Part shown: positions 3,207-20,901 of the stretch, in pieces
Layout: each line of letters begins with the position of its first letter
Numbering within the stretch: position 1 is the stretch's first letter
NCBI RefSeq assembly: GCF_024171995.1
Contig: NZ_JAMTCT010000008.1
Location: 124,001 to 188,000 of the forward strand
DNA length: 64,000 nucleotides
Source of the DNA: Promicromonospora umidemergens
Lineage (GTDB): Bacteria; Actinomycetota; Actinomycetes; Actinomycetales; Cellulomonadaceae
Reading direction: 5' to 3'
The notes under the pieces: model-generated
The model's database searches: none
What the model was told of the DNA's origin: nothing
What the model saw: the letters and a program-made list of their open reading frames with translations, nothing else
Position numbers and translations under genes: made by a program

Positions 3207-4043
3207 ATGAGGGTCGCTCTGCTGGTGGTAGGAGACGAGATCCTGGACGGGTCGACGACGGACAGCAACAGCGGGTGGGTGTGCCGGCAGATCTCTGGCC
3301 GCGGGGCGAGCGTCGTACGGACCGCGGTCGTCCCTGACGACCCCCGTGAGATCGGCCAAGGACTGGACTTCCTGCTGCAGGTGAAACCGCGCCTCCTCAT
3401 CACACTTGGTGGGCTTGGTCCGACACGGGACGACCTCACGGTAGGGGCAGTCGCCGACTATTTCGGTGTGCGGCTGGCCGAGCATCCCGACGGTGCCCGG
3501 ATCGTCAGCGAGCGGTACGCAGCGCTCGCGGAGGCGGGCCGGGTAAGGGACACGTCGAGTCCGGCAGCGCTTCAGGCACGGGCCAAGATGGCGCTCCTGC
3601 CGAAGGCCGCAGTCGCTCTTGACAATCAGGTCGGAGCGGCCCCGGGGGTGTGGTTCGACGTCAAGGAGCGCCTGTCGGTTCTCAATTTGCCGGGCGTGCC
3701 GTCCGAGCTGAAGTACATCTTCATCAATGAAGCCGGGGCGCACCTCCAACGTGTGCTGGGTACGGGGTACTTCCGGTCCGCGACGATCGTGACCTCAACG
3801 AACGACGAGTCGGAGTTGTCAGCCTCGCTTGCTGCGTTCGACGAGAAGCACGCTGACCCCGCCATCTATCTCAAGTCCCGGGCCAAGCGTTTCGGCAAGG
3901 ACGTTCGGATGCAGGCGACGATCTCAAGTCGGGGGAGCGACCTGGACGACGTTATCGGTCGGCTCGCAGCGGCTATTGAGGGCTTCCGGTCTGAACTGAC
4001 GAGCGCGTCCATCGAGGTGCAGTCGGTGACCTTCGATGAGTGA
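3207..4043 (+). CDS. CinA N-terminal (MoCF-type) domain protein
   Basis: The protein opens with the molybdopterin-binding-like domain of CinA: ALLVVGDEILDG at residues 4-15, TTDSNSGWV, and LITLGGLGPTRDDLT around residue 70. The later part (about residues 150-275) matches the middle region of CinA, including LPGVPSELKYIF. At 278 residues it lacks the C-terminal NMN deamidase domain of full CinA. In CinA this N-domain has ADP-ribose pyrophosphatase-type activity, so a nucleotide-processing role is plausible. The gene overlaps the next one by 8 bases (GATGAGTGA), implying translational coupling. That partner begins with a macro-domain-like stretch, also an ADP-ribose-type fold, which makes the pairing suggestive. 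Confidence 0.7.
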   Translation: MRVALLVVGDEILDGSTTDSNSGWVCRQISGRGASVVRTAVVPDDPREIGQGLDFLLQVKPRLLITLGGLGPTRDDLTVGAVADYFGVRLAEHPDGARIVSERYAALAEAGRVRDTSSPAALQARAKMALLPKAAVALDNQVGAAPGVWFDVKERLSVLNLPGVPSELKYIFINEAGAHLQRVLGTGYFRSATIVTSTNDESELSASLAAFDEKHADPAIYLKSRAKRFGKDVRMQATISSRGSDLDDVIGRLAAAIEGFRSELTSASIEVQSVTFDE

Positions 4044-4701
4044 TCCCGCGAGCGGACTTGTGGACACGCGGTCCCGAGCGAGACGTCGCGTCGAAGTGAT
4101 CCTGGGAGACCTCACTCTGGTCGAAGCGGACGCGATCGTCTGCCCGGCGAACAGCTACGGGACCATGGGTGGTGGCGTTGCGGCTGCGGGTTTGGCTTCT
4201 TCAGCTGATCCTCAAGATGAGCAGGCTGCGGCTGTGCGGGCGCTTGGCGTGCTGCTCACCGGGACCGAGGCGCTCCTGGTCGCCGCCGGGCTGGACGCCG
4301 AGGAACCCGTGACGTCCGCGTTCGCGGTCGTCGATCCTCGTCGGCGTGCGGACGCGCTTGCGCTCGTAGCCGCCGCTGGACTCCGGTTGCGGAGGGATGT
4401 GTTGGCCGTCGTGATGCGTGGCATCGAGGGGGGCCGCTCTGTGACTCAGCGGGTCGAGACTCTCTGGACCATGCCCGGGCATCTCGCCGGCGCGGGAAGC
4501 CTCACCACATCGCTCGTGCTGCTGGTGGCAGGCGCACGCGAGTCCGTGGTTTGCTCCACCTTCAACTTCCGGCGGTCTTCGGGCATGTGGACCGCGTTGC
4601 ACCACGCCGTCGCCAGAGCAGGCGTGTCGGTACGTGTCTACGTGGACGCGGTCGCGGTCGAGAGTGGACGAGGTCCGTCTGCCGCCGAACTAGCGAAGTA
4701 G
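4036..4701 (+). CDS. Short macro-domain-like N-terminus joined to a truncated PLD-like protein
   Basis: Residues about 18-50 (VEVILGDLTLVEADAIVCPA, then NSYGTMGGGVA) look like the start of a macro domain but stop after the glycine loop. From about residue 60 (ALGVLLTGTEALLVAAGL) the sequence resembles PLD-like proteins of the DrmC kind, including LWTMPGHLAGAG, VVCSTFNFRRSSGMWTALHH and VSVRVYVDA. The second half of a PLD domain, with the HxK catalytic motif, is missing: the frame stops at 4699-4701 soon after AAELAK, and the next genes are convergent. It looks like two gene fragments joined by deletion. It may still be expressed, because its start overlaps the upstream stop. Family names are from motif memory and not verified. 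Confidence 0.55.
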   Translation: MSDPASGLVDTRSRARRRVEVILGDLTLVEADAIVCPANSYGTMGGGVAAAGLASSADPQDEQAAAVRALGVLLTGTEALLVAAGLDAEEPVTSAFAVVDPRRRADALALVAAAGLRLRRDVLAVVMRGIEGGRSVTQRVETLWTMPGHLAGAGSLTTSLVLLVAGARESVVCSTFNFRRSSGMWTALHHAVARAGVSVRVYVDAVAVESGRGPSAAELAK

Positions 4702-5586: not shown

Positions 5587-6423
5587 ATGACTGACTGGAT
5601 CTACCCCGCGAATCCTGGGACCGAGAGCTGGGGCTACAGAACAGCCGAGGGCGTCTCAATCCCGCCACGTGAGCTGTTCGCGGGGAAGCACCCGGACGTC
5701 CTGGGCCCGGGCAACCGTGTCCAGACCTGGTACTTGCCCCGGCTCCGGCGTGAGTTCCACGCCGGAGACGTCGTTTGGGTCCGGCAGAGCGAGACGGGTG
5801 GCCTGCTCGTCGGTGCTGGCGTAGTGCTGACCGAGCCGTGGCCCGGCGAGGACGGGGGCATCTACTTCGAGGTCGACTTCTGGAACCCTGAGAGTCGCGA
5901 CCTGGCGGCCGTCCCGTTCGACCTCGCCGTTGAGTCTGTACCTCAATCGGCCCGCACTGCGAAGGACAGCGAACGCGCGCAGGTGCTGGCACGCTTCCCG
6001 GACGGAGTTACCGTCGATGATGACACCCGAGCCCGCCTACGTCGTCGGCAAGACGTCGCAGGTCGCCAGGGTCTGACGGTGTTCCGCGAGAAACTCATCG
6101 ACGCCTACGGCGGCCGGTGCGCCATCACCGGCGATGATGTCATCGACGCGCTGCACGCGGCTTACATCGACCCGTACACCGAGACCGGCAGGGAACTCGT
6201 GGTGAACGGGCTCCTGCTGCGCGCCGATGTCCGCGACCTGTTCGACCAGGGCCGGATCTGGGTCGATGTCGACGGCAAGGTCCGTATGCACACCTCCCTG
6301 CGGTCCAGCGGCTACAAGCAGTACTCGGGCAAGAAGCTCCGCCTGCCCAAGGACGAGAACAAGCGGCCCGGGACCACCCGCCTTGCGCGGCATCGCAGGG
6401 TCATTGCCGGTCAGTCCGCCTGA
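5587..6423 (+). CDS. EVE-like/HNH protein with altered catalytic residues, 278 residues
   Basis: The N-terminal ~125 residues resemble a PUA/EVE-type fold (WIYPANPGTESWGYR at the start, GDVVWVRQSETGGLLVGAGV at about 60-80). EVE domains bind modified bases. Residues 166-270 follow the HNH_2 pattern FREKLIDAYGGRCAITG ... NGLLLRADVRDLFDQG. The usual AAHI motif reads AAYI (Tyr193) and the usual DIHxLFD reads DVRDLFD (Arg216), while Asn207 is kept. Both metal or catalytic histidines are therefore replaced, so cleavage activity is doubtful. The start ATG follows GGGAG. It stands 215 bases before the large helicase gene on the same strand, suggesting a shared defence role such as recognition of modified DNA. 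Confidence 0.7.
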   Translation: MTDWIYPANPGTESWGYRTAEGVSIPPRELFAGKHPDVLGPGNRVQTWYLPRLRREFHAGDVVWVRQSETGGLLVGAGVVLTEPWPGEDGGIYFEVDFWNPESRDLAAVPFDLAVESVPQSARTAKDSERAQVLARFPDGVTVDDDTRARLRRRQDVAGRQGLTVFREKLIDAYGGRCAITGDDVIDALHAAYIDPYTETGRELVVNGLLLRADVRDLFDQGRIWVDVDGKVRMHTSLRSSGYKQYSGKKLRLPKDENKRPGTTRLARHRRVIAGQSA

Positions 6424-6638: not shown

Positions 6639-9600
6639 GTGTTGAGTTACGTGGGTGTCGACGGACCCAAGGCGTTGCACGAGGGCGTCGTCGGCCAGGC
6701 GTCCCGCCTGCTCGACTTCTTGTCCGCGGTGGCGCGGGAGGTAGGGCCGGAGCCGGTCCGTGACGTCAACCATCAGGAGTTCTTGGTTTGGCCGACCGAG
6801 GTCCCGACCCATCGCGCGGTGCGGCTCGGGCCGAGCGACACCCGGCCCTCGTGGCTCGAGGTGAGCCGCCTACCTGAACCCGAGTCAGTGACGATCCCCG
6901 ACGAGCTCAGCGGACTCATTGTTCAGAAGTCGATGCAGTCTCCTGACCAGGAGCCTGAGTTGTCGGCTGCCGGGGTCGAGGCGTTCGTCGACGAGAGGCT
7001 GCCGCTTCCTCTTGACGAGCTCCGCGGTGTCCAGCCCGACGCTATCGAGCAGACGGAGGACCCTGATCGCGCCGTCGACGATGAGCCTCGCGCGGTTTGG
7101 GAGGCGGAGCGAGCGGGACTTCGCGAAGAGATCCAGACGCACTTCACCCGGTGGAGGGAGACGACCTGGCAGGTGTGGGCCGACCGCACCCGGCCAGCGA
7201 TCGCTGCCCGGAAGCTGTACGGCCGGCTCTATGAGCTGCACCTGCGAGCAGAACGGGAGACGGCGACGTACGAGGTCGTCTGGGGCCACTGCGTGATGAG
7301 GTGTACCAGGGAGGGGAAGTCCATCGTCGCCCCGATGTTCGTCGCGCCGATGACGGTCGAGGTGAATCCCGATGACGCGTCGATCCGAGTTGCTCCTGAG
7401 AAGCCTGCGGAGCTCGAGCTCGACACCATCGAAGGTATCTGGTTCGACGGGCTCGAGGCCCTCTCCGCGCTCCGCACCCGGTTGACGAGCGAGCCTCCGG
7501 ACCTGTGGGACGCTGACCAGCGGCTTGCGGTGCGACGACAGATCGTAGCGCCGCTCGGCCTGGAGGCGAGGCTTGCGGAAGACGAGGGCCGTGGTGCCAG
7601 TGTGTCGGCACCTGTTCTTGACGACGGGTGGACGCTCTACCTGCGCAAGCGCCCGATGCGCCAGGAACGCTTCTATGACGAGCTCGCGGAGAAGCTTCGC
7701 GACGAGGAGTTCCTGCCTGAGGCGCTGGCTTCGGTCGTTGCGGACAAGGATGTTCTGGACTCTGCGCTTGCTTCGATCGGGCAGACCGTGGGAAGTGACG
7801 ACGGCACGGCCAACCGCCTCCTGATGCCGCTCCCGGCAAACGATGACCAGGAGCGAATCGCGCGGCAGCTGGCTCGTTCCCGCGGCGTTACGGTGCAGGG
7901 TCCCCCTGGGACAGGCAAGTCGCACACGATCGTCAATCTCGTCTCTCATCTGGTGGCGCAGGGCAAGCGGGTGCTGGTGACGGCACAGAACGACCAGGCA
8001 CTGACGGTGCTGCGCGACAAGATCCCTGCGGAGCTGCGGGACCTGTCGATCGCAGTCCTCGGCTCGACACCAGCCGCGATGGAGGAGCTGCGGAGCTCGG
8101 CACAGTCGATGCAGGACTCGATCTCGTCCCTCGACCTGGCGAAGGAGGAACGGCGTATCAAGGAGCTGGGCGGGAGGATCGACGAGCTCCGGGACAGCCT
8201 TCGCCGGACAGATCTCGACCTGGTTGAGGCCCTCCGCAGTGAGCAGCGGGAACTGGACCTGCCTGCAGGCCCGGCCCGTGCCAAGGAGGTCGCGGAATGG
8301 CTGGCCAAGGACCGGCACCTGGATGTCATCGGCGACGCAGTACCCGTGGGAAGCGAGTTTCCTGTGGGTGTCGATGAGATGACAGAGCTCCGCGAGTCGG
8401 TGCGGAGCATCACCGTGGAAGACGCGACGAGTGCACTGCTGGATCTGCCCGATGTGGACTGGCTACCGACTGCGGCTGACCTGGGCACGGGGTTCGACCG
8501 GCTCGACCGGCTCCGTGATGAGGTGACAGCCTTGGAGTCCGGGGGTCTCCAGGTGGAAGGAGTCGACGGGCTCGACCGGGACACATGCCGTGCCCTCGCC
8601 GACGAGGCTCTGGACTCGGCGCGCACGCTCGACGCGCTCAACGGTCACTGGGAGAACCAGCTCGCCGCTGAGATCCTCAGCAACGGCCCGGTGGCCGACT
8701 TCACGATCCAGCAGAACGCGACTGTTCTGGCCAAGCTGGGCGAGGGACGTTCGATACAGGTGCGCCTCGCCGGCCACGAGATCATCGTCCCCGATGGGGA
8801 CCCCGCCGTTCAGGTCGCGCTGCTGCAGACCTGGCGGGAGCGGCTCGATGCTGGCAAGAGGGGACTTCCACCATTCGGTGCCCGCGAGCTCAAGACACTC
8901 GCGGAAGCCACGCGATTCGACGGGTTCCCGGTCTCGTCCGTCGCTCAGGTCGATCTTGTCGCCTGGGCGATCCAGCTCCGGTCGGTCCTACGGGGGGTCC
9001 GCCTGCTCATGGTTCAGGCGTACCAGCCCTCAGGGATCCCGGTGCCTGACGACGGGCCAGGCTTCATCTTCGCAGCGCAGAAGCTGGCCGACCGCGTTGG
9101 CAAGGTGCACCGCTGGTGGTCCGAGACATACCCCGACCTCACGCGGCGCTTCCGGCCGCTGGTCACCTTCTCCGATCCCGCCCGAGACGCGGCCTCCCTG
9201 CGGCGTGCGGGCGAGCTGCTCGGCGGTGCGGCGGCACGTATCGAAGAGCGAGTCCTGAGCAGCGAGCTCGACAGACTCGGCGCACGGCTCAAGGGGTGCG
9301 TGGCGACGGAGCACGCCTCGCCCTTGTGGGCAGCACTCCTTTCCGCTCTCGAGCTGCACTCGGCGCAGAGCTGGAGCCAGGCGACAGAGGAGACCCGCCG
9401 GCTCGCGGCCGTCCGGGGCCGTGTGAACTACCGGGAACGGCTCGTGGAGAAGATCGCTGAGGCGGGTGCTCCGCGGTGGGTGCGCTTGGTCGTGGATTCC
9501 CGTGCTGATCACGACGTGACGGGCGACCTCGACGACCTGCCGCGGGCTTGGCAGCGTGCTGCGGCACGGACGTGGCTCACCCAGCTGCACGGCGAGAGCG

Positions 9601-11831
9601 ATGTTGCGGTCCTGATGGAGCGTACGCACGAGCAGTCCAAGGAACTGCAGCGGACCGTTGTCGACCTGGCGAGCCGTTCGGCGCGGGTTGGGCTCAAGAA
9701 GAACATCAAAGACCGCCAGCGTCGTGCTCTCGACATGTGGCTCACAGCCATCAAGCGCATCGGCAAGGGAACCGGAAAGAACGCGGTTCGGTACCAGGCG
9801 CAAGCACGCGAGGCGCTACCCGCGGCGATGGGCGCAGTACCCGTCTGGATCATGCCGATCTATCGGGTCCTGGAGAACTTCGATCCCCGTGTCTCGGACC
9901 TGTTCGACGTCGTCGTGGTCGATGAGTCATCGCAGTGCGACCTGCTCACGCTCGGAGTGCTTGCCCTGGGGGAGAAGTCCGTCGTCGTTGGTGACGACAA
10001 GCAGACGTCGCCACAGGCGGTCGGCATCAACACCGACCGGATTGCAGCGCTCCAGGAGCAGCACATCGGCGATCTTCCCGGTCGGCGCCTGCTGACCATG
10101 GATGAGTCCCTGTACTCGATCTCCGGCCGGGCCTTCCCGTCCACGATCCTGCTCCGTGAGCACTTCCGGTGTGTGCCCGAGATCATCGCTTTCTCCAACA
10201 CGTTCTATGACGGCAAGATCCTTCCGCTCCGAGAGGTGACACAGCCGCAGATCGGTCGCGCGCTCAACGCCGTGCACGTCCAGGACGGCGCCTCCGTCAA
10301 ACAGGGATCTCACCGCGTGAACGTGCGCGAGGCCCAGACGTTGGTGGACAAGGTCGCCGAGTGCGCGGCGAACCCCGCCTATGACGGGCTGACCTTCGGC
10401 GTGGTGACTCTTATGAGCGGCCCACAGGCGAAGATCATCGAGGACTTGCTGGTCAAACGGCTCGGCATCAGCGAGTACGAGAAGCGCCGACTTCGGGTCG
10501 GTAACCCGCCGGTCTTCCAGGGAGACGAGCGCAGCGTTGTCTTCATCTCCGTGGTTGCCGACGACAACTCTTTCGCTGCGACCCGGACGATGCACGCGCA
10601 GTGGGTCAACGTCGCGGCGTCGCGCGCCCAGGACCAGATCTGGCTCTTCCACACAGTGGACCCGAGCACTCTGAACGCCGCTGACTACCGTAGGCAGCTC
10701 ATCGAGCATGTCCGCGACCACGGTGACCGTCCGGAGGCAACCGACCTCTTCGCGCTGACCGACTCCAAGTTCGAGCGCGACGTCCTCAAGCAGATGCTCG
10801 ACCACAGTTACGACGTGACCCCACAACACAAGGTCGGTAGCTACCGGATCGACTTCGTCGTCAACGTCGCGCCAGGGGAACGGCTGGCCATCGAGTGTGA
10901 TGGCGACTCGTTCCACGGGCCCGACCAGTGGGATGCCGACGTGCGTCGACAGCGTGTGCTCGAACGCATCGGGTGGAGCTTCTGGCGTATCCGGGCCTCG
11001 AGGTACTACCTCGACCCCGTCGAGGCGATGGAGCCATTGTGGGAACGCCTGGAGCACATGCGGGCCCGCGCCGCTGAGGCAGAGAAGGTACGGGCTCGGC
11101 AGGCCGAGATCGAGGACGAACGCCGGCTCCGGCGGCTTCGTGTCGCGACGGTGCGACGTGAGCAAGCCGCTCCGACGAGTACCCCAGCAGCCTCGACGGA
11201 AGCAGCGGTCGCCGGCACGCTAGACCTGGACGAAACAGTTGCTCCGGAGTCGCGTACCCGGGTCCTGTCGGCCACCAGGCCATCGCGTGAGCCTGGGCAG
11301 CAACTCGTCCCCTCGCCTCGACGAGAGACTCCAGGCACGCTCGAGTGGTCCACGATGACTGACCCCTCCGCGATCCGAGCCTGGGCACGGGCACAAGGGT
11401 TCAGCATTTCGGACCGAGGCAGAATCTCCGCCGAGGTGACCGCGGCGTTCCAGAAGATGCAGCGTGCCCTTTCGGACGCCGTGGGCACTCCTGGCACGGT
11501 GCCATCGGCATCACCAGCGAGCGAGCAGTTGCGCGAGATCTCGGTAAGCGAGATCAGTTCCGACAGGCTGGCCGAGGTCTCCTTGTACGGCGACCAGTAC
11601 GTTCTTGACCACCTCGGGGACATCGTCTCGCGCCGTGACGGCCGCAGCCTGAGCGATGCCGTTGGTCCGCGTCAGGCCGCGCGGGTTCGTGACGCGATGC
11701 GGGCCGTCCGTCCGCACGGCGGCAGGTTCAAGGTCGGCCGCGATGGCGTGATGGTGACGGCGGTTGGGAACACGCCGACCTATGTCACCACCGTCACCGC
11801 GGACGAGTGGTTTCCGGGAACTATCGGCTGA
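6639..11831 (+). CDS. Giant SF1 helicase with Vsr/DUF559-like nuclease and Lsr2-like DNA-binding domain
   Basis: This 1730-residue protein begins with about 400 unassigned residues. The SF1 helicase follows: Walker A GPPGTGKS at 421-428, a coiled-coil-rich insert, Walker B VVVVDESSQ around Asp1095-Glu1096, GDDKQTSPQ from 1118, LREHFRCVPEIIAFSN, and the arginine motif WVNVAASRAQDQIW. Residues about 1378-1470 form a Vsr/DUF559-type nuclease (RIDFVVN with Asp1405, AIECDGDSFHG with Glu1419, Asp1421 and His1426). Residues about 1575-1612 (AIRAWARAQGFSISDRGRIS) match the Lsr2 C-terminal DNA-binding domain. An unassigned ~100-residue tail follows. It resembles single-protein helicase-Vsr defence systems such as Hhe. 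The GTG at 6639 is very close to the GAGGGG site; the GTG at 6651 is an alternative start. Confidence 0.8.
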   Translation: MLSYVGVDGPKALHEGVVGQASRLLDFLSAVAREVGPEPVRDVNHQEFLVWPTEVPTHRAVRLGPSDTRPSWLEVSRLPEPESVTIPDELSGLIVQKSMQSPDQEPELSAAGVEAFVDERLPLPLDELRGVQPDAIEQTEDPDRAVDDEPRAVWEAERAGLREEIQTHFTRWRETTWQVWADRTRPAIAARKLYGRLYELHLRAERETATYEVVWGHCVMRCTREGKSIVAPMFVAPMTVEVNPDDASIRVAPEKPAELELDTIEGIWFDGLEALSALRTRLTSEPPDLWDADQRLAVRRQIVAPLGLEARLAEDEGRGASVSAPVLDDGWTLYLRKRPMRQERFYDELAEKLRDEEFLPEALASVVADKDVLDSALASIGQTVGSDDGTANRLLMPLPANDDQERIARQLARSRGVTVQGPPGTGKSHTIVNLVSHLVAQGKRVLVTAQNDQALTVLRDKIPAELRDLSIAVLGSTPAAMEELRSSAQSMQDSISSLDLAKEERRIKELGGRIDELRDSLRRTDLDLVEALRSEQRELDLPAGPARAKEVAEWLAKDRHLDVIGDAVPVGSEFPVGVDEMTELRESVRSITVEDATSALLDLPDVDWLPTAADLGTGFDRLDRLRDEVTALESGGLQVEGVDGLDRDTCRALADEALDSARTLDALNGHWENQLAAEILSNGPVADFTIQQNATVLAKLGEGRSIQVRLAGHEIIVPDGDPAVQVALLQTWRERLDAGKRGLPPFGARELKTLAEATRFDGFPVSSVAQVDLVAWAIQLRSVLRGVRLLMVQAYQPSGIPVPDDGPGFIFAAQKLADRVGKVHRWWSETYPDLTRRFRPLVTFSDPARDAASLRRAGELLGGAAARIEERVLSSELDRLGARLKGCVATEHASPLWAALLSALELHSAQSWSQATEETRRLAAVRGRVNYRERLVEKIAEAGAPRWVRLVVDSRADHDVTGDLDDLPRAWQRAAARTWLTQLHGESDVAVLMERTHEQSKELQRTVVDLASRSARVGLKKNIKDRQRRALDMWLTAIKRIGKGTGKNAVRYQAQAREALPAAMGAVPVWIMPIYRVLENFDPRVSDLFDVVVVDESSQCDLLTLGVLALGEKSVVVGDDKQTSPQAVGINTDRIAALQEQHIGDLPGRRLLTMDESLYSISGRAFPSTILLREHFRCVPEIIAFSNTFYDGKILPLREVTQPQIGRALNAVHVQDGASVKQGSHRVNVREAQTLVDKVAECAANPAYDGLTFGVVTLMSGPQAKIIEDLLVKRLGISEYEKRRLRVGNPPVFQGDERSVVFISVVADDNSFAATRTMHAQWVNVAASRAQDQIWLFHTVDPSTLNAADYRRQLIEHVRDHGDRPEATDLFALTDSKFERDVLKQMLDHSYDVTPQHKVGSYRIDFVVNVAPGERLAIECDGDSFHGPDQWDADVRRQRVLERIGWSFWRIRASRYYLDPVEAMEPLWERLEHMRARAAEAEKVRARQAEIEDERRLRRLRVATVRREQAAPTSTPAASTEAAVAGTLDLDETVAPESRTRVLSATRPSREPGQQLVPSPRRETPGTLEWSTMTDPSAIRAWARAQGFSISDRGRISAEVTAAFQKMQRALSDAVGTPGTVPSASPASEQLREISVSEISSDRLAEVSLYGDQYVLDHLGDIVSRRDGRSLSDAVGPRQAARVRDAMRAVRPHGGRFKVGRDGVMVTAVGNTPTYVTTVTADEWFPGTIG

Positions 11832-11902: not shown

Positions 11903-12997
11903 TCAGGTTTGGGTCCGCCAGCGCCGTAGCAAGTCTTCCTCGACGTCGTGCCGCAGGCGTTCGAGGTCCAGAGAGCCATCGGGCGTCCGCAGACCGCCAC
12001 GGGCGAGCGTCTCGCAGACCCCGATCCACACAGTGCCGATGACGGTGATCACTGCAGGTTCGATGATGACGTCGGCGAAAGTCCCGGCACCCCCGCTGCT
12101 GGGCGCTTCGGACGCCTTTCGGGTAACGGACCAGGCGGTGCGTGCGAGGCGCACCACAGTGCCGGCCGCCTCCTGCGCTTCCCCGGACTCGACCCGATAG
12201 ATGGCGGCAACCTCCGAGATGAGCTTCTCAAGCAGTTCGTCAGAGTTCTTGGTGCTGAATGCCTCGCCCGCGGCCTTGAGCACGGCCATTCCGGCATTCC
12301 TGCGCCGAGCCCAGGACTGTCGGCCGACTGACTTGGCGACCGCCCGATCGATCGCGCTGCGTACTGCAGGAGCGGCGGCTTCGAGCATCGCTTCGTAGAG
12401 AGCGTCGAGGCCATGTGCAGACTCACCGGTCTCGACGTCGTCGACGGCCACAACGGCATGTGCTCGTCCGGCATGGACAGGCAGCTGGAGGGACTCAAGG
12501 TACGCCGCCATCTCGAAGGCAGACCTGGTGAGTCGGCCGTCGTGTCCCAGCGGAGCCCGGGTGAGTACCAGCAGCACGGGCAGGCCGAGCGCTGACACCT
12601 TGCGGATCAGGCCCTCTTCCGCGGGGTGGAGGCGCGCGTCGATGGCGTGAACGCAGTAGAGCGCCATGTGGATCTGCTCGTTCAGGTCTCCCGAGGTGTG
12701 GCTCTTGATGCGGTCCCGGAGGTCGTGGACCAGCTCGCTCGACCTCGTTCCGAGCTCGCTCCCCGGGGCGTCGTAGACGCCCAGCGGCTTGCCTGGAACA
12801 GCGTGGAGGGTGAGCCTCTCGGTGACCGGACGCCCGATGCCTGTTCGCGCGAGGTCCACGTCGAAGAGCGCATTGACCAGCGTCGACTTGCCTGCGCCGG
12901 TGCGGCCGAGCAGGAGGACGTTGAAGCGCTCGGCGCGCTGAGCTTCGGCGGTGTAGGCGGCGCCGCGATCGAGGGGCGAGTCATCGGTCGGCGGCAA
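11903..12997 (-). CDS. P-loop GTPase, second of a paralogous pair, 364 residues
   Basis: The GTPase domain fills the first ~170 residues: G1 GRTGAGKST at about 31-39, switch region RTGIGRPVTE, and G3 DAPG. The G4 position reads LVLTRAPLG instead of N/TKxD, so the guanine-specificity Asp is missing. The C-terminal part has one modest hydrophobic stretch (VITVIGTVWIGVCETLA) that aligns with the end of its upstream paralogue, which has a much longer membrane region. The start overlaps the end of that gene by 17 bases, so the two are translationally coupled and may act as a heteromer. The location between the helicase and Wadjet suggests a defence or membrane-remodelling role; the exact function is unknown. 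Confidence 0.75.
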   Translation of the reverse strand: MPPTDDSPLDRGAAYTAEAQRAERFNVLLLGRTGAGKSTLVNALFDVDLARTGIGRPVTERLTLHAVPGKPLGVYDAPGSELGTRSSELVHDLRDRIKSHTSGDLNEQIHMALYCVHAIDARLHPAEEGLIRKVSALGLPVLLVLTRAPLGHDGRLTRSAFEMAAYLESLQLPVHAGRAHAVVAVDDVETGESAHGLDALYEAMLEAAAPAVRSAIDRAVAKSVGRQSWARRRNAGMAVLKAAGEAFSTKNSDELLEKLISEVAAIYRVESGEAQEAAGTVVRLARTAWSVTRKASEAPSSGGAGTFADVIIEPAVITVIGTVWIGVCETLARGGLRTPDGSLDLERLRHDVEEDLLRRWRTQT

Positions 12998-14162
12998 CTG
13001 TGCCTCCGTCTCTTGTGTCGGGAACCGGTGTGCCGTCTTTCTGTGCCTTGCGGAACGCGTACCGAAATTCGTCCCGGAACAGCTTTCCGATCGCTTCGTC
13101 GTCGAGCTCGCCGTTGTCGGACCGGAACCGCCCCAGCGCCACCGCCTCGCAGACCGCGATCCAGGCCAGACCGACGGCTGAGACGAGCGCGAAGATGAGT
13201 GCGCCGTTCACCACGCCCGCTACCGCGCCGACGACCGGCAGTACCTTCAGGAGCGCGCCGATCGCAACGCGCCCGCTGGCTGCACCAAGGACGACACCGG
13301 CGACGCTGGCGACCACTCTGCGGCTGAAGCGAAGCTTGTAGTGTGCGGAGAGGCTCGCGATCATGCCGGTCAGTGCCGTAGACAGACCCGCGATATCGAC
13401 CAGCGGGACCGGGATGGCCACCAAGCCGGCCGATGCAGTGGCCGCAGCGGTGACGATGCCCAGTGCTGTGGGGCGGAGCCGGCGCAGGCGGGTCTTGACA
13501 CTCGAGGTGTCGTTGATCGTCCTGTCGAAGGCGGCTTGCCACTCGTCGCTCAGGTGGTCCCAGGTGACGTCATAGAGACGGTCCAGACCGTGCTTCTTCT
13601 GGCCCGTCTCCTCGTCCTGGAGCGCGTGCAGCGGTACGGCCTTTCCACCCGCTACCGGCAGGCCCACGTCGTCCAGGAACCCGACGAACTCTGCTGCTCG
13701 TGTGACCAGTCCACCGCTCAGAGACTGGCGTGCCTTGGTGACGACGAGTACCACCGGGAGGCGATCAGCGAGATGGCTGATGATCTCCTGCTCGCCCTCG
13801 GTGAGCCGTCCAGGTTCGGCGGGGACGCAGTACCAGCAGGCCTGGATCGTTCGTTCGCGTCGCTCCTTGAGTACGTCGTCGATCTCGCCGATCAGCTGGG
13901 CGACGGACCTACCGAGCTCGAGTCCCTTCGTGTCATAGATGCCGAGACCGGCCTCTGGGAACTCGTGGTATTCGACGTGCTCGGTGACTGGTTTGCCGGT
14001 GCCGGTCCTCGCGACGTCGACGCCGAACATCGCGTTGATGAGGGTGCTCTTGCCGGCACCGGTCTGGCCGAAGACGGCAATGTCCAGACGGGGTTGGGCG
14101 CGAGCGGCGCGTTCAAAGGCGTCGTCGAGGTTCTCGTCCTCTGGCGAAGCGGTCGCTGCCAT
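12981..14162 (-). CDS. P-loop GTPase with DUF697-like membrane tail, first of a pair, 393 residues
   Basis: The ATG at 14162 is chosen because CGGAG lies six bases upstream; an in-frame ATG at 14198 has no ribosome site. G1 is GQTGAGKST, followed by ARTGTGKPVTEH, G3 DTKG and a G4-like VVTKARQS in which the usual Asp of NKxD is absent. Residues about 240-350 are strongly hydrophobic (TALGIVTAAATASAGLVAIP, later GVVNGALIFALVSAVGLAWI) and resemble the DUF697/YcjF-type membrane region. This predicts a membrane-associated GTPase. The next gene is a shorter paralogue overlapping it by 17 bases. Bacterial dynamin-like and Era-like membrane GTPases are alternatives. Gene order after Wadjet places it inside the defence island. 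Confidence 0.75.
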   Translation of the reverse strand: MAATASPEDENLDDAFERAARAQPRLDIAVFGQTGAGKSTLINAMFGVDVARTGTGKPVTEHVEYHEFPEAGLGIYDTKGLELGRSVAQLIGEIDDVLKERRERTIQACWYCVPAEPGRLTEGEQEIISHLADRLPVVLVVTKARQSLSGGLVTRAAEFVGFLDDVGLPVAGGKAVPLHALQDEETGQKKHGLDRLYDVTWDHLSDEWQAAFDRTINDTSSVKTRLRRLRPTALGIVTAAATASAGLVAIPVPLVDIAGLSTALTGMIASLSAHYKLRFSRRVVASVAGVVLGAASGRVAIGALLKVLPVVGAVAGVVNGALIFALVSAVGLAWIAVCEAVALGRFRSDNGELDDEAIGKLFRDEFRYAFRKAQKDGTPVPDTRDGGTVAADR

Positions 14163-14405
14163 CGGAACTCCGATCTGGTTGGAGGGTCCAGGATGCATGA
14201 AGGAGGTGCCTCCGGAAGGCGGTGGGGCGCGAGCCCGGGGGTGATCTTGCTGCTCAAGAGCGTGCCACGAGCGTGCGCCACGGCCAGTCAGGGAGACGAT
14301 AACGCTGGTTCCCAGCGCTGCGGTTGCTCGGGCCGACTCCGCCCCAGCCCGCGAGCTTCACCTTCTGCTTCTACCTCGGCATGACTATCGTTTGGTAGGC
14401 ACAAT

Positions 14406-15629
14406 TCAGGGTGACGGGTCGATGCGACCAGGACCGCTTGCGGACAGGTCACCCCGGAGCACCTCCCAAACCGTCTCCTCCAACACCGCCACACCCCGCT
14501 CGACCATCGCCGGCGCAAGCTCGTCGTCCCACGGCGCGGGAGTCACTCGCCCAACAGGCGCACCGTGGTCGCCGACATGAGCTCGGTACTCCAGCGCGTC
14601 CATCCGCCACGGCAGCGCACCGGTCTCCGCCATGACATGCCCTGCGATGCGCACCCCCTCACCGTCGAGGTCCCCGTGGTAGCGCAGCTCGTTCCCTGCC
14701 TCAGCCAGGCCGTTCAGCAGCCGCATCCCCGCCGTGCTCGGCCAGCCCGACGTGCACACCATCGGCGGAACCAGCGGCCCAAAGGCCGTCACCGCGAGCC
14801 AGAGGACCGCCGGGTTCTCAACGATCCGCACGATCCCAGCTCGAGGGAGAGTCGGAGCCCCCTCCTGCAGATCGGCCAGGGTCAGGCTGACGGCCCGGCC
14901 GTCGGCGTGGCCAAGATGGCACATCCGATCAGCGGCAGCGTCCCCGACAGCGGCGAACCCCGCGACGAGCACCGTCGAGGACAGCACGTCGTCGGCCACA
15001 CCGACGGACTGCCACAGGGCGCGCCGTTCCGCGGCGCGCTGGGGCCGCCCGACCTCGCGTTCGATGGCGACCGCGCCGAGCACCAGCGTGGCCACCGGGG
15101 AACCGGGATCGAGCGCGTGGGTGTCGTTGAGTGTGCGCCCGGCCAGCACGGGCAGCGGCTCACCGGTGCTCGGCAGCGCGTCGAGCACGGTCAGCGCCCG
15201 TTCCAGGTTGGTCCGCTGCGTGTCGACCGACCCCCGCACCCCGCCGGCCTCGACGTCGCGGGCCCATCGGGCCAGATCCCGGGAGCGGACGACGGGGTGG
15301 CTACCCAGCCATTCCCACAGGGCGGTACGGGCGTCAGCCTCTTGCGCGCGGTCGGCGACCCGGTCGCCGATCGGTCCGTACCTGTGGATCAACGCTTCGC
15401 GCAGGGGTGCCCCGGACAGCCGCTCGACCGCGGCGGCCACGTCCTCGAGGCGCACCTTGGCTCCTGCGGACGGCAGGCTCGCCAGCCCCAGCAGGTCGGC
15501 TATCGCGTCCTGTTGTGCGCGGTCCAGCTGCCCGAGCCGTACCGACGTGACCGGCTTACCGGTGGAGAGCCGCCGGTGGCACTCCCGGAGCAGGCTGTCG
15601 AGCCCCGCGTCCCACCCGTCGGCCGTCAC
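14406..15629 (-). CDS. jetD: Wadjet JetD, TIGR02679/DUF2399-type Toprim nuclease
   Basis: JetD is the nuclease subunit of Wadjet, which cleaves closed circular DNA after loop extrusion by JetABC. The protein (407 residues) carries the Toprim features near its C-terminus: a Glu in IVRIVENPAVLW and the acidic motif YHGDLDGEGVRIAGHV, with TSGWPSTAGMRLLNGLAEAG between. The N-terminal half is a variable arm domain. The GTG start at 15629 overlaps the jetC stop as GTGA, which rules out the longer upstream reading. It is the last gene of a four-gene minus-strand operon. All signature residues I can judge are present, so the system should be functional. Confidence 0.88.
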   Translation of the reverse strand: MTADGWDAGLDSLLRECHRRLSTGKPVTSVRLGQLDRAQQDAIADLLGLASLPSAGAKVRLEDVAAAVERLSGAPLREALIHRYGPIGDRVADRAQEADARTALWEWLGSHPVVRSRDLARWARDVEAGGVRGSVDTQRTNLERALTVLDALPSTGEPLPVLAGRTLNDTHALDPGSPVATLVLGAVAIEREVGRPQRAAERRALWQSVGVADDVLSSTVLVAGFAAVGDAAADRMCHLGHADGRAVSLTLADLQEGAPTLPRAGIVRIVENPAVLWLAVTAFGPLVPPMVCTSGWPSTAGMRLLNGLAEAGNELRYHGDLDGEGVRIAGHVMAETGALPWRMDALEYRAHVGDHGAPVGRVTPAPWDDELAPAMVERGVAVLEETVWEVLRGDLSASGPGRIDPSP

Positions 15630-18600
15630 AGGGCCTGTTCCACCAGGTCGATGAGGTCGTCCGGCAGATCGTCGTCCTGGACCAGGCGACCGCCTCGCCA
15701 CACGAAACGAGTGGTGGTCACGGGGTCTCCGTCCGAGCCCGCGGCGAGAGCATGGATCGCGATCTCAGGAACCTCCGGGTAGCACGCCCACTCGTGGTCG
15801 GACGTGAGGACGAGGTCCAGGTCGAGGTCGCGCAGGAGGGCGAAGATCTGCCCGCGGTTGTTCTCGTCGATCCCGACGAAGACCTCGTCGAGCAGGATCA
15901 AACGGGGTGCGGTCGGCGTGGCCTCGTAGTGCGCGGCGAGTGCCGCGAAGAGGGGGAGGTGCAGCGCGATGGCTTTCTCGCCACCGGAGAGCACGCTGTG
16001 CGTGCGCTTGGTCAGCGTGCGCCAGCCCTCGATGTCCGGGCGGGAGAGCTGGACCTGGAACCGGTGCCACTGGGTGTAGTCGAAGACGGTCGCGAGCTGT
16101 TGCGCCCAGCTGCGTCCGGAGTCCTGCGCGTGCGCTGCGTCGATCCGGGCGCGGAAGAACGTGTGGAGGGCATCGTGCTCCACCTCGGTCAGGAGGGCAG
16201 GGTTGCGCAGGAGCAGTTCTCGAGCACTCCGCAGACCGGTGCCCGCATCGTCTCGGACGTCCCAGCTGAGGCGTACCCGGACGCCGGATGCTGTTCGCAC
16301 CGTGCCGAGACGGTCGTTCATCCGGCGTACCAGCGCGTCTGCGTCACGGATCGTCTGCGAGAGATGCCGCCGCGTGTCTCCGGTGAGGGCCTTCTCGAAC
16401 AGGGCGTGCTCGCTGTCGGTGATCTCGTGGTGGGCGCGTCGCTCCTCCTCCTCGACAAGGTGAAGGAGTTCCGCGATGCCGATCCGGCGGCCGGGCAGCA
16501 CTGCGACCGGGATGACGACGTCGCTCTCTTGGATGACGTCGAGGTGGGCCCGGCGGGCAAGCTTGTCGCCGATCTCGTGGGCCCGTTGGTGGAGCCGGCT
16601 CTGCGCGTGATGCAGCGTGTCGTTGGGGCGGGTGGTGGGCAGCGTGCGGTCGAGTCGGCGGGATTCTTCCAGCACGGCGGTCACCCCGGCGTCCACAGGC
16701 AGCGGCTCGGTGATACCTGTGTCGGTGGCGAGTGTCGTGCTCAGCGCGGCGACCAGGGCTCGGGAGACCTCGTCACGGTGCTCCAACGCGCTCTGGTGCT
16801 CTGACTCAGCCGTGACAGCGGCCTGCTCCAGGCGGGCGACAGCCTTGCCCGCGTTCCCCGCCTCGCTCGTGAGCCGCTTCACCTCGCGACCTTCGTCGTC
16901 GATCTGTCCGGTCAGCTCGTCAAGACGCGACACCACCTCGGCGTACGAGCCGCCGAGCCGTTCCTCGAGCGTGCGGAGCCGGACGGCGTCCTCGTGCGCC
17001 GTTCTCCCATCGCCCTCCGCGCGGTCCTGCTTGCTCGAGACGTCGTCCGCGGCAACCTCGGCGGCCTCCTGTGTGTCCAAGGACGTGTCACGCGCGGCCT
17101 CGGCGTCGCGCTCCGCCTGCACACGGTCCCGGTCCTGGACGCGCAGCAGGGCCAGGGTGGCAGTGATGGTCTCGAGCTGCTCGCGCTCGTTGGGCAGGGC
17201 GCGTTCCTGTGCCCCCCGGACGAGCGTCTCGTGGGCACGGGTCACGGCGTCCTGGGCCTCACGCACCGCCTCGGCAGCGACGCCGTCGGCCCGTTCACGC
17301 TCGGCCTGCAGCACGGAGGCCTCATCGATCGCCCGACGTGCGGCAGCAAGTGTGGTGGCGGAGGGAAGCCGCGTGGCCTCGGCATCGACGATCCGCAGCT
17401 GCTCCTCCAGTCGCTGCACGGTGTCGGCGTGCCCGGCTGCGCTCCTGGCGTGCTCGGTGATCTGCTCGTCGAGCTCTGCGAGGCGCACGAGTCGGTGTCG
17501 TTCGCGTGCGGCGGCGCCGATGAACTGTGCGGCGTCCTTCGACCAGGTGCCCCGTGCGACGCCGAGACGCCAGGCGCCGGCCGGGGAGACCCAGCTCGCT
17601 GCCGTGCCCTCCGATGCCTCGTCGCCGGTCTGGTGCAGCCCGACGGCGTCAAGGGCGCGCGTGACGGCGGTTGCGGACACTGCGACGCCGGCGGGGACGT
17701 CGGGTCGCAGTACCTGCGAGAGCCGCGGCCCGTCGACCGGTGCGGACGGGGCCAGCACCGTGTCGTGACCGGCGGGGACGAGGGAGCCGTCTGACGCCAG
17801 CCAGGCGTCGAGCAGGCCCGACGACTCCAGGGCGGCCTCGAGTCCGGCCTGGTCGTCGCCCGGCACGGAGTCCTGGAAGTCGACGACCTGCCACAGCCGA
17901 GCCCCCGGGCCGCGCCCGGGACGCTCCGAACGGAACCGAGACGGCGTGGGAGCCACCAGGGACTGGTCGGCGAGCGCCGCATGCTCCGCCGTGAGCCTGT
18001 CCCGCTCGCCTGCCTCAGCATCGTGCAGGCGTGCCTGCTCGTCGCGGTCCCTCTCCAGCTCGCGCCGGGTCTCGTACCTCGCCTGCTGGACGTGCTCGGT
18101 GACCCTGTCGGTATCGAGGGCGGCGAGCAGCGCCGGTTCATCGAGCTCCAGCACGGAGCAGGAACGTGCCCAGGCCATCACCTCCTCGACGTAGCGTTCC
18201 TCCTCCGCCGATGCCGCGGCCCGCGCGTCGTCCAGGTCGCTTGCCGCCTGTGCGAGCAGCTCCAGAGCGCGGGTGCGGGCAGCCTCGGCCGTGTCACGGT
18301 CCGCGCCGGCCTTCTCGAGCCGGTCCAGGAGGCGGAGCACTTCGCTGACATGGCCCTCGACGATCTTGATGCGCGCCGCGAGGTCGTCCGTACCGATCAG
18401 GTCTTCCATCCCGATCGCACGAGCGGTCTGTACCGCCACGCCGCGGGCTCGTTCGGCTGCACCGCTCTGGTCTGCGGCGGCGCGTACCGCCTCGGCTGCC
18501 TTGGTCGCCGCCCGCCCGGCCTGCGCCCGTGCCGTCTCCAGGTCGTGCCGTGAGCGGTCGGCGACCTTGACCGACTGCGCTGCCCTCTTGCGTAGGTCCT

Positions 18601-19609
18601 CGAGATTCCGGCCTTCCTGATAGGCGTCGGAGTCCTTGAGAGCCTGCTGCTCGGCGTGCCGGCCGGTGAGTCGGGTCTCGGCCTCCGCTCGGAGCTGAGT
18701 GAGTTCCGCCTCGCGCTCCTGGGCTTCGGTGAGCCGGTCGCCGCCCTGACGGAGCCGCCGCGAGGCCGTGTCCACCTCGGTAGCTGCGGCGGTGACGGCC
18801 TTGGCGCGCTCGCGCAGCAGCACTGCGCCGTACGTGCGCGTCGTGTCGAGCAACGTGTGTGCCGCACGGACCTCGACGGCCAGGTCAGCCAGCTCGGCTC
18901 GTCTCTGGTCGAGCCGTTCGAAGCCCTCCGCGAGCTCCTCGATGCGCGTCGCGTCGACAGGTGGCAGCGCGGAGGAGAGGAAGGTCGAGAGGTTCTCCGG
19001 GTCGAGCCGCTCGGACAGTTTGGGACGGCGCAGCTGCAGCAAGGCCTGCACGAGTGCGTCGTACCGGTCCGGTTCCATGCCAGGGAAGAGGGTGGTGCGT
19101 ACGTGTTCGCGATAGCCGTGGACGTCGTCCTCGTACACCTTTCCGCGACTGCTCACGGCCGTCTTGAGGTGGGCGACGGTCAGCGGCTCGCGATCAGGTT
19201 GCAGCTCGAGGTCGTACCCGACGCGGGCCTGCACCACGAAATAGGTGGTCCGCACCCTCGTGTCGGACTTGCTTGCCTGCAGCCGCGCGCCGATCGTCAC
19301 GTGCTGCTCGCCCAGGTCTGCCGGACGGCGTAGCTCCAGCCACACGTAGCCGACGCGGGTCGCGCCGACGGCTCCCTGTCCCATGAGGTTCCAGTGCATC
19401 GACCGCTCGCCCGACCCGAACGTCGACAGGCGTGACGGCCGCAGGTTGGCATCCAGCAGGAACGGGAGGAGCAGCTCGAGAGCCTTCGACTTGCCGCTGC
19501 CGTTCGGGCCGCGCAGGAGGAGCCGGCCGTCGGCGAACGTGAGTGTCTCGTCGTGGTAGCGCCACACGTTCAGCAGCCCTGCGCGGGTCGGTTGCCAGCG
19601 GTTCGTCAT
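15626..19609 (-). CDS. jetC: Wadjet JetC, SMC-like ATPase of the TIGR02680 family
   Basis: JetC is the SMC/MukB-like motor of Wadjet. In the 1327-residue protein, Walker A is RGPNGSGKSKA at residues 33-43, and a long alternating Glu/Arg/Ala coiled coil fills the middle (roughly 270-1000) with a hinge-like region near 580-740. The C-terminal head has the signature VLSGGEKA near residue 1205 and Walker B RLILLDEVFVGID near 1235, followed by LTSDHEW. Length and order fit the family. The ATG at 19609 overlaps the jetB stop (ATGA), and its own stop overlaps jetD (GTGA). The tight coupling suggests fixed subunit ratios. Confidence 0.92.
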   Translation of the reverse strand: MTNRWQPTRAGLLNVWRYHDETLTFADGRLLLRGPNGSGKSKALELLLPFLLDANLRPSRLSTFGSGERSMHWNLMGQGAVGATRVGYVWLELRRPADLGEQHVTIGARLQASKSDTRVRTTYFVVQARVGYDLELQPDREPLTVAHLKTAVSSRGKVYEDDVHGYREHVRTTLFPGMEPDRYDALVQALLQLRRPKLSERLDPENLSTFLSSALPPVDATRIEELAEGFERLDQRRAELADLAVEVRAAHTLLDTTRTYGAVLLRERAKAVTAAATEVDTASRRLRQGGDRLTEAQEREAELTQLRAEAETRLTGRHAEQQALKDSDAYQEGRNLEDLRKRAAQSVKVADRSRHDLETARAQAGRAATKAAEAVRAAADQSGAAERARGVAVQTARAIGMEDLIGTDDLAARIKIVEGHVSEVLRLLDRLEKAGADRDTAEAARTRALELLAQAASDLDDARAAASAEEERYVEEVMAWARSCSVLELDEPALLAALDTDRVTEHVQQARYETRRELERDRDEQARLHDAEAGERDRLTAEHAALADQSLVAPTPSRFRSERPGRGPGARLWQVVDFQDSVPGDDQAGLEAALESSGLLDAWLASDGSLVPAGHDTVLAPSAPVDGPRLSQVLRPDVPAGVAVSATAVTRALDAVGLHQTGDEASEGTAASWVSPAGAWRLGVARGTWSKDAAQFIGAAARERHRLVRLAELDEQITEHARSAAGHADTVQRLEEQLRIVDAEATRLPSATTLAAARRAIDEASVLQAERERADGVAAEAVREAQDAVTRAHETLVRGAQERALPNEREQLETITATLALLRVQDRDRVQAERDAEAARDTSLDTQEAAEVAADDVSSKQDRAEGDGRTAHEDAVRLRTLEERLGGSYAEVVSRLDELTGQIDDEGREVKRLTSEAGNAGKAVARLEQAAVTAESEHQSALEHRDEVSRALVAALSTTLATDTGITEPLPVDAGVTAVLEESRRLDRTLPTTRPNDTLHHAQSRLHQRAHEIGDKLARRAHLDVIQESDVVIPVAVLPGRRIGIAELLHLVEEEERRAHHEITDSEHALFEKALTGDTRRHLSQTIRDADALVRRMNDRLGTVRTASGVRVRLSWDVRDDAGTGLRSARELLLRNPALLTEVEHDALHTFFRARIDAAHAQDSGRSWAQQLATVFDYTQWHRFQVQLSRPDIEGWRTLTKRTHSVLSGGEKAIALHLPLFAALAAHYEATPTAPRLILLDEVFVGIDENNRGQIFALLRDLDLDLVLTSDHEWACYPEVPEIAIHALAAGSDGDPVTTTRFVWRGGRLVQDDDLPDDLIDLVEQAL

Positions 19610-20901
19610 GCGGGGCTCTCCTCAGGAACGTTGCGTGCTGGAGCTGCGGCGAAGGTTGCGTCGCGATACCGGTGAGCGGCAGGGCGGGCCGTCACCACGG
19701 CACCGTCGCGTGTGACGAGATGATGGCGCCCCAGCAGGCCGATCGCCTCTGCGAGGAGTCGATCCGGACCGTCGTCGTCCTGGTAGGTCCGCGCCCAGCC
19801 GCGGTTCGCGGCGAGCAGGTCGGCGATCGCGCTGCGGAGCAGGTCGATGTGGCTACTGCCTGCCGGGCTGCTCGTCAGCACTGTGACGAGGTGGAGCGCG
19901 GCGACCGAAGGGGCCCCGTCACCCGGGAACACCTCGTCGGTCGAGATCCGCTCGCGATCGACCAGCAGGTACCCCTCGGCCCGCGTCTCCAGCACGAAGC
20001 CAGCCGTCTCGGCGGCCTTGCGCAGCTGTTCGCGCCCGCTGATCGAGTCGAGGTAGTCCCGCTGGGCGGGGCTGAGCCGGTCCCTGTGCAGCGCGGGATC
20101 GTCGAACACTGCGCGGAGGGTCGAGTGCCGCAGCCACAGGTTGCGACGCGTCCGGGCAGCATCGTCCTCCGGGGGCGCGAGCGGCCCCGCGCCGGGCCGG
20201 GTCGCGTCGCGGTAGTCCTCGCCGTACGCGGGCTCGGCGAGCAGCGCGTCGACGGCGTCGTCGAGCCACTCGTCCTGGTCCAGGTTGACGGCGGTGGACG
20301 ACGCCCCGACGGGTGCAGCGAGCAGCGAGAACAGGCCGGCCTGCTCCACCTGGTAGAGCACAGCGGTGGTCGCGTCGTCGGTGAACGACTCGGCGCGGCC
20401 TTCAACGGCCCGGAGGATCCCCGCCTCCTCGAGCTGGAGCACGGCGTCGACGAAGGCTCGGCGGTGCCCGTGCCTCTTGGTGTCGAACGGCGGTAGCGCA
20501 GCGTCGGTGCTGCAGGAGTGCGCCGCAGCCTCCGCGAGCTCACCGAGCGTGACGACACGGCGAGACACGAGCTCGGCGCCGACGACGCACAGGAGGACGT
20601 ACCGGTGCCGGTCGAACGGGACACCGGAGCGGTGCTGTCTGGCGGGGCGGACGTCGTCGGGCACGAGATCGGGGGGTGCCACCTTGACGAGGCGCACGTG
20701 CCCGCTGCGTGGGTGCAGCCGCAGCTCCCAGCCGAGGTAGTTCTGGAACCAGGCGCTGACGGCGATCTGTCGGCGCCGCACGAGGTCGTAGTCGTCCGGC
20801 GAGCTGTCCCGGACGATCAGGGGAGTGCGGAGGAGAACCCGGATTGCCTTGCGGACCTCCTCCGTCTCGGTGACGACAAGCTGGTTCTGCAGGTTGCTCA
20901 C
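19606..20901 (-). CDS. jetB: Wadjet JetB, TIGR02678/DUF2398 type (MukE/kite-like)
   Basis: JetB is the small kite-type winged-helix subunit that bridges JetA and the JetC heads. The 431-residue protein matches the DUF2398 style: RKAIRVLLRTPLIVRDSSPD near the N-terminus, then AWFQNYLGWELRLHPRSGHV, RRRYV-like FDRHRYVLLCVVGAELVSRR, and the late ETRAEGYLLVDRERISTDEV. The GTG start at 20901 is preferred over an upstream ATG because it overlaps the jetA stop as GTGA, matching the other junctions in the operon. No membrane segment is present, so it is cytoplasmic. Confidence 0.88.
   Translation of the reverse strand: MSNLQNQLVVTETEEVRKAIRVLLRTPLIVRDSSPDDYDLVRRRQIAVSAWFQNYLGWELRLHPRSGHVRLVKVAPPDLVPDDVRPARQHRSGVPFDRHRYVLLCVVGAELVSRRVVTLGELAEAAAHSCSTDAALPPFDTKRHGHRRAFVDAVLQLEEAGILRAVEGRAESFTDDATTAVLYQVEQAGLFSLLAAPVGASSTAVNLDQDEWLDDAVDALLAEPAYGEDYRDATRPGAGPLAPPEDDAARTRRNLWLRHSTLRAVFDDPALHRDRLSPAQRDYLDSISGREQLRKAAETAGFVLETRAEGYLLVDRERISTDEVFPGDGAPSVAALHLVTVLTSSPAGSSHIDLLRSAIADLLAANRGWARTYQDDDGPDRLLAEAIGLLGRHHLVTRDGAVVTARPAAHRYRDATFAAAPARNVPEESPA

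Follow-up and report, generated by a model that had tools for sequence, protein, structure and literature searches.

How nuclease defences beyond restriction-modification and CRISPR tell foreign DNA from their own is mostly an open question, and it is raised in concrete form by a gene of Promicromonospora umidemergens that lies within a stretch of 64,000 nucleotides (contig NZ_JAMTCT010000008.1), hereafter called the window. The gene is a single uninterrupted frame with a GTG start, in whose product the original prediction, made from the letters of the DNA alone, had seen a helicase, a Vsr-like nuclease and an Lsr2 DNA-binding domain joined in one protein; the open frame and Pfam matches over the cut-offs bear this out. 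With moderate confidence, we regard the product, which is of the large MTES_1575/PDC-S37 type, as a single-gene anti-DNA enzyme that is held on AT-biased DNA by its Lsr2 tail and whose targets are probably phage and mobile elements. In such a mechanism, the superfamily 1 (SF1) ATPase would move along or open DNA, the joined Vsr-like nuclease would cut it, and the Lsr2 domain, on a variable linker behind the nuclease, would reach with its RGR loop into the minor groove of double-stranded DNA that is rich in A/T. The tail would thus tether or load the enzyme onto DNA richer in AT than the host, whose GC content is roughly 70%, or else onto phage DNA with Lsr2-type sites. The observed part of the case consists of the domain order, the integrity of the catalytic and RGR residues, two or more gains of the tail on our tree, the accessory distribution and the defence-island setting, while the degradation of invader DNA and its aiming by the tail are what we infer.

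The large helicase-nuclease family was recognized in the window protein by two SF1 helicase halves (AAA_11 and AAA_12) parted by a long insert, with an MTES_1575 nuclease downstream of them whose catalytic residues are intact (Table 1). The Walker motifs that had been read at residues 421-428 and 1095-1096 hold, and the nuclease residues named with them (Asp1405, Glu1419, Asp1421 and His1426) are likewise invariant in an alignment of five proteins, namely those of the window, M. sorbitolivorans, G. sediminis, Microbacterium sp. G2-8 (L011) and genome G084 (G and L numbers are our handles for genomes and loci). These are five of the six proteins of the window clade; the sixth (L020/G085), which is cut by a contig end, was used in the alignment of the C-terminal domain, in the tree and in the identity counts. 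The Pfam scan that had been proposed for the Lsr2 domain and DUF559 detected both, the latter at residues 1393-1464 (5.9e-5, over cut-off); matches were reported to E 0.5, with filters that discard most of those above 0.1. Four relatives were found in named genomes, from 19 pattern stretches: two from Microbacterium and one from Gulosibacter carry the Lsr2 tail, and one from Streptomyces (37% in the best piece) ends without it.

Table 1. Features of the helicase-nuclease gene and its neighbourhood (positions in the window)
Feature	Residues	Positions	Strand	Evidence
Whole gene: helicase, MTES_1575 nuclease, Lsr2, C-terminal domain	1-1730	6639-11831	+	Open frame; four long relatives 53-58% identical
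N-terminal region	1-400	6639-7838	+	No Pfam domain; mean pair identity 0.48, 10 pairs
Helicase half A, AAA_11	401-525	7839-8213	+	Pfam 2.6e-17, over cut-off
Walker A GPPGTGKS	421-428	7899-7922	+	Invariant in five aligned proteins
Long insert separating the helicase halves	526-1060	8214-9818	+	Identity 0.50, 10 pairs
Walker B DE	1095-1096	9921-9926	+	Invariant in five aligned proteins
Helicase half B, AAA_12	1167-1336	10137-10646	+	Pfam 8.7e-11, over cut-off
MTES_1575 (Vsr/DUF559-like) nuclease, PF18741	1378-1471	10770-11051	+	Pfam 1e-29, 102.8 bits, cut-off 38.2
Unconserved linker	1480-1570	11076-11348	+	Identity 0.22, 15 pairs
Lsr2 DNA-binding domain, Lsr2_DNA-bd, PF23359	1574-1606	11358-11456	+	Pfam 7.5e-14, 51.2 bits, cut-off 26.9
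RGR	1593-1595	11415-11423	+	Invariant in five aligned proteins; kept in 7/7 carriers found
Conserved C-terminal domain	about 1645-1727	11571-11819	+	Alignment of 5 proteins
Two adjacent dynamin/MMR_HSR1-type GTPase genes, downstream		11903-12997, 12981-14198	-	Weak LeoA/LeoBC matches
JetD2		14406-15701	-	PADLOC
JetC2		15626-19609	-	PADLOC
JetB2		19606-20976	-	PADLOC
JetA2		20898-22472	-	PADLOC
Two HNH_2 endonuclease genes, upstream		976-2064, 5587-6423	-, +	PADLOC restriction-type HNH models
DrmC-like gene, 221 amino acids, upstream		4036-4701	+	1.1e-53 to DISARM DrmC; directly behind MoCF-domain gene
MoCF-domain gene, upstream		3207-4043	+	Pfam

The tail belongs to the Lsr2 DNA-binding family by its profile match above the curated cut-off and by the RGR minor-groove motif. 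An independent hidden Markov model (HMM), trained on 30 PF23359 domains of the class that match strongly (in frames of 118-321 amino acids, all outside the helicase-nuclease family), matched it at 1.2e-15, and three Lsr2 chains of the PDB match residues 1576-1605 weakly by sequence (0.034-0.038). The 128-residue Lsr2 of the same genome reads VREWAKANGYTVSDRGRI and the window protein IRAWARAQGFSISDRGRI. In contrast to Lsr2, however, the window protein has its DNA-binding domain joined to an enzyme and gave no match up to E 0.5 to PF11774, which we take to be the N-terminal oligomerisation part of Lsr2 and which matches at a single place in the genome, the 128-residue protein. Among six proteins (15 or 10 pairs), mean pair identity is 0.49 in the Lsr2 part and 0.46 in the C-terminal domain, but only 0.22 and 0.18 in the flanking linkers, and this contrast argues for selection on the modules and not for a chance run of similarity.

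Structure prediction had been suggested as a further check. With four sequences as input, AlphaFold gave a model of residues 1361-1730 (mean predicted local distance difference test score, pLDDT, 60; predicted template modelling score 0.36) in which the nuclease has an alpha-beta-beta-beta-alpha-beta core, with 10-residue block means of 59-87 that mostly lie at 74-87, the Lsr2 part forms a helix-loop-helix (block means 62-74) and the C-terminal domain is alpha-beta, at low to medium confidence (36-67); the first 30 residues of the linker form a helix extending from the nuclease, the remainder has a pLDDT below 50, and a model from the single sequence was poor (pLDDT 48). A Foldseek comparison of the model with the PDB gave no E below 0.001. 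Its best plausible row was the catalytic domain of the homing endonuclease I-Bth0305I (3r3p; template modelling score by target 0.73, E 0.013), a Vsr-like nuclease, and the two rows ranking above it were mitochondrial ribosome chains with root-mean-square deviations over 20. The support from the fold is therefore modest, and it is the sequence profiles that carry the case.

The original prediction had likened the protein to Hhe, a name that we take to mean HEPN-helicase-endonuclease. The two are alike in carrying a helicase and a Vsr-type nuclease in one chain, and the helicase-nuclease end of the window protein matches residues 1355-1789 of the 1911 of the Hhe model; however, the Pfam scan found no HEPN up to E 0.5, and PADLOC ranked PDC-S37 (1.9e-56) and MkoC (7.2e-35) above Hhe (1.6e-28). 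Membership in Hhe was therefore rejected in favour of the better match, PDC-S37, a candidate single-gene PADLOC system with which residues 920-1519 align over 776-1379 of 1550 and which is also the best match of the Lsr2-tailed protein of genome G599 (1.3e-56). This best-matching stretch, however, ends before the Lsr2 part. The giant MTES_1575 proteins also share with the window protein an SF1 helicase followed by a PF18741 nuclease and a tail behind the nuclease. MTES_1575 has been described as combining HEPN, transglutaminase, SF-I helicase and Vsr nuclease with two winged helices overlapping DUF3320 (PMC3710099, Anantharaman et al. 2013). In contrast, the scan of the window protein gave no HEPN, transglutaminase, winged helix or DUF3320 up to E 0.5, and its tail consists of Lsr2 and a new domain. 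No report of an Lsr2-helicase-nuclease fusion was found among the matches listed in full-text literature searches, a scope outside which subscription papers and preprints not in PMC lie. The nearest published case found is the Ku of cluster J mycobacteriophages, a DNA-end protein with an RGR-bearing Lsr2 DNA-binding domain as its C-terminal tail; it differs in being phage-borne and in having Ku instead of a helicase-nuclease, and the contribution of its Lsr2 part was not investigated in the part of the study available (PMC8612146).

The position behind the nuclease is variable in this family, which is widespread (PF18741 at E 1e-8 in 163 of the 198 genomes of the order). With the independent HMM, an Lsr2 tail was found in three of 70 strong family matches of the order (window, G084 and G599), and it is also present in five entries picked as relatives (L009, L010, L011, L014, which is G084, and L015, which is G085). 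All of these scored 1.6e-9 or better, the next tail scoring 0.19. The 70 tails comprise the window gene and 69 others, that is, the top 72 listed matches less G664:C4 and G585:C8; the tail of L110 ends at a contig edge, and the HMM scan did not include the tail of L108, which has five residues. Other members have DUF3320 (L023, 1.1e-6), helical-looking tails or short ends in the same place, and a sister helicase-nuclease in genome G546, L133:284-5641 (-), ends in a DUF4357-like piece (2.4e-6, below cut-off). The protein of G599 (1552 amino acids, Lsr2 at 1515-1547, 1.6e-8, over cut-off) groups with proteins of the same taxonomic family that have no tail, and stands well apart from the window clade of six rows, in a tree computed on helicase and nuclease without tails (29 rows; L022, a near copy of L021, was left out). 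The tree requires two changes, and its starred branches force two. Monophyly of the seven Lsr2 carriers was rejected by the approximately unbiased test (p-AU 5.4e-38), and again in a 22-row tree under a mixture model from which seven long or divergent rows had been removed (p-AU 7.0e-8). The trees were searched quickly and drew warnings about long branches and composition, the constrained group was defined after the tails had been seen, and gain was preferred to many losses by parsimony; within these bounds, the tail appears to have been gained at least twice, once in the window clade and once in G599. Tentatively, the region behind the nuclease of actinobacterial helicase-nucleases may be an exchangeable aiming slot, at least twice filled by the DNA-reading domain of a xenogeneic silencer, so that relative AT content, the mark by which the cell itself knows foreign DNA, would serve to destroy that DNA and not to silence it, with the C-terminal domain as a further sensing or coupling part; this broader proposal is possible, and we would not call it probable. 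The natural and repeatedly gained joining of a silencer domain to a helicase-nuclease offers in any case a concrete module that can be removed (33 residues or the RGR) and, if the proposed role is true, would tie xenogeneic silencing to defence by destruction of DNA in bacteria of high GC content.

It has been shown that H-NS and Lsr2 put a Q/RGR motif into the AT-rich minor groove and that RGR suits low-AT genomes (PMC4466236). Steering of the enzyme to AT-rich incoming DNA, as originally proposed, is plausible because the RGR is kept in all seven carriers and because the tail was apparently gained at least twice, but counts of A/T runs in three actinophages lend it little support. Runs of six or more occur at 0.07-0.31 per kb in pieces of the host and at 0.33, 0.53 and 0.00 per kb in the phages, and 20-bp windows with at least 70% AT make up 0.000-0.069% of the host pieces and 0.040, 0.223 and 0.000% of the phages (30-kb pieces of phages picked from the list of Lsr2 matches). 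Since such runs are rare in both, AT content by itself would discriminate only weakly between self and phage, and best against low-GC elements. Several further observations weigh, like these counts, against the proposed reading of the enzyme as a whole. During infection by phage BPs, the host Lsr2 stayed put and did not relocate (PMC10066036). The Lsr2 tail is missing in 67 of the 70 tails (one of the 67 being cut by a contig end), so that it must be dispensable for the core activity. No domain is assigned to the N-terminal region or to the large insert of the helicase, either of which could be where a trigger is sensed: the Pfam scan gave neither HEPN nor DUF4011 in residues 1-400 up to E 0.5, and no domain above a cut-off in the insert. 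Furthermore, none of the neighbours tested in L009 (two), L010 (two) and L011 (one) matched a PADLOC model, and the fit to a defence setting is therefore not uniform.

An unlikely alternative is that the Lsr2 tail is a generic tether that raises the affinity of the enzyme for double-stranded DNA of any kind close to the nuclease, while foreign DNA is chosen elsewhere, through the N-terminal region, the insert, DNA ends or the state of modification; DUF3320 or winged-helix tails may act alike in the sister proteins. The unrelated tails and short ends that occupy the same slot in other members fit such a tether, as does the small difference in A/T runs between the host and the three phages. A tether of this kind, however, would have no need for an AT-reading RGR kept in every carrier found, nor for the same domain to be recruited at least twice. 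Much less probable still is that the tail brings the enzyme to DNA on which Lsr2 gathers, such as phage replication zones, where it would occupy the same sites as Lsr2 of the host or the phage and cut, so that Lsr2 sites and not bare AT content would mark the target. It has been reported that host Lsr2 shifts from the chromosome to the replication zones of phage Fionnbharth, whose genome has 67.4% GC and two low-GC regions (PMC10066036), and a match to an Lsr2 consensus with E of at most 0.05 occurs in 470 of 50,697 phage records. In contrast, the behaviour of Lsr2 with BPs speaks against gathering as well, and the presence of the DNA-binding domain only, with no PF11774 match up to E 0.5, makes a direct joining of Lsr2 filaments unlikely.

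The placement of the gene among defence genes is well supported, in keeping with the defence role that the original prediction had assumed. A complete type II Wadjet system begins 2.6 kb downstream (PADLOC), and three relatives have DISARM-type, type ISP, GmrSD or type IV restriction genes as neighbours. The G084 gene is located 100 bp after a type IIG/DrmMI-like enzyme and 10 bp ahead of a GmrSD enzyme; DrmD lies upstream of it, and farther on there is a DruE-like helicase; the L011 gene is located 84 bp after a type ISP enzyme; and the stretch of G599 also holds a type IV restriction enzyme and PDC-S01. In G085, the neighbour tested proved to be a helicase of UvrD type whose GajB-type matches are weak. 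The window gene is accessory, being present in one of the 13 genomes of the genus, and the gene with its full tail was found in three of the 121 genomes of the taxonomic family (its own, G084 and G085). The first 14.2 kb of the window have 66.2% GC, compared with 71-72% beyond. Vsr is a repair nuclease, and the family matches are so common in the order that some branches may be housekeeping; the protein could therefore be a helicase-nuclease of repair or of the replication fork that stands in an island by chance. The accessory distribution of this branch and the restriction or defence genes adjoining the window gene and three relatives make this, too, very unlikely. Least probable of all, although Lsr2 proteins are silencers of genes gained by horizontal transfer (PMC7074111, PMC4466236), is a regulatory tail that, like xenogeneic silencers, keeps the enzyme silent on AT-rich host spots or its own promoter, given that the first 14.2 kb hold no A/T run of 8 and 0.07 runs of 6 per kb and that the 215 bp upstream of the gene have 64.7% GC.

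Among the other neighbours, the two GTPase genes may form a membrane-acting defence pair, and the MoCF-domain gene directly ahead of the DrmC-like gene is presumably CinA-like; no further Drm match was obtained with PADLOC among 17 other proteins scanned from the window region. The window contains no tRNA, and no Rfam match was found in positions 1-30000. In G084, the relative stands in a dense island on contig C2 (L158:8887 to L159:12974) with PDC-S01, SoFic, DrmD, type IIG/DrmMI, helicase-nuclease, GmrSD and DruE-like helicase genes, which looks like a mixed DISARM/Druantia-type array. Near the relative of Microbacterium sp. G2-8 there is another large gene, L011:17614-21294 (+), that encodes 1226 amino acids and matches MkoC at 1.7e-48.

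The original prediction made no mention of the conserved domain that follows the Lsr2 part. The best Pfam match of this domain was Ribosomal_L10 at 0.25, with no family below that value, and no PDB sequence was better than 0.097. It is matched in three of 394 genomes of the class, those being the window's and two small ones (1.2 and 1.5 Mb), in which it ends proteins of 282 and 309 amino acids, L029:1486-2334 (-) and L030:802-1731 (+). For one of them Pfam gives a Swt1-like HEPN match that is weak (0.0023, below cut-off), and for the other it gives none. Both loci presumably hold C5 DNA methyltransferase genes, as read by eye in the sequence and not by a profile. The domain is missing from two Lsr2-tailed proteins, that of L011, which ends in Lsr2, and that of G599.

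That the protein as a whole is of mobile or viral origin was considered and rejected. Pattern-seeded scans of IMG/VR gave 38 pattern matches with the full alignment and 9 with the C-terminal domain, none of them a relative, and four phage records match just a helicase or helicase-nuclease piece. The body is matched by 412 plasmid records, none spanning 80% of the query, and the 30 matches listed all end by residue 1474; the tail alone is matched by 15 plasmid records, each over at most 28% of the 175-residue query, 14 of which are annotated as Lsr2-type proteins.

In a census of the class, PF23359 was found in at least 199 of 246 genomes. For the eight longest PF23359 frames among the matches listed, a motif search found the domain in six and no motif in two. 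Enzyme fusion was rejected for those six, five being ordinary Lsr2 proteins with read-through upstream frames and one a shorter Lsr2-type protein; a long open frame alone is therefore no sign of a fusion. In both carriers tested, the Lsr2 part is matched by the PADLOC MTase_II model PDLC03328 close to the C-terminal end of the model, and some annotated methyltransferases probably also bear an Lsr2-type tail. Two other Lsr2 domains occur in the genome of P. umidemergens itself. On contig C13, a 212-residue protein, L024:6151-6789 (+), has an N-terminal Lsr2 domain (1.7e-10) and an integrase-like gene, recognized by eye, nearby. On contig C40, an Lsr2 domain (2.6e-8) lies within a tyrosine integrase of 523 amino acids, L025:6361-7932 (+), where it precedes the catalytic domain.

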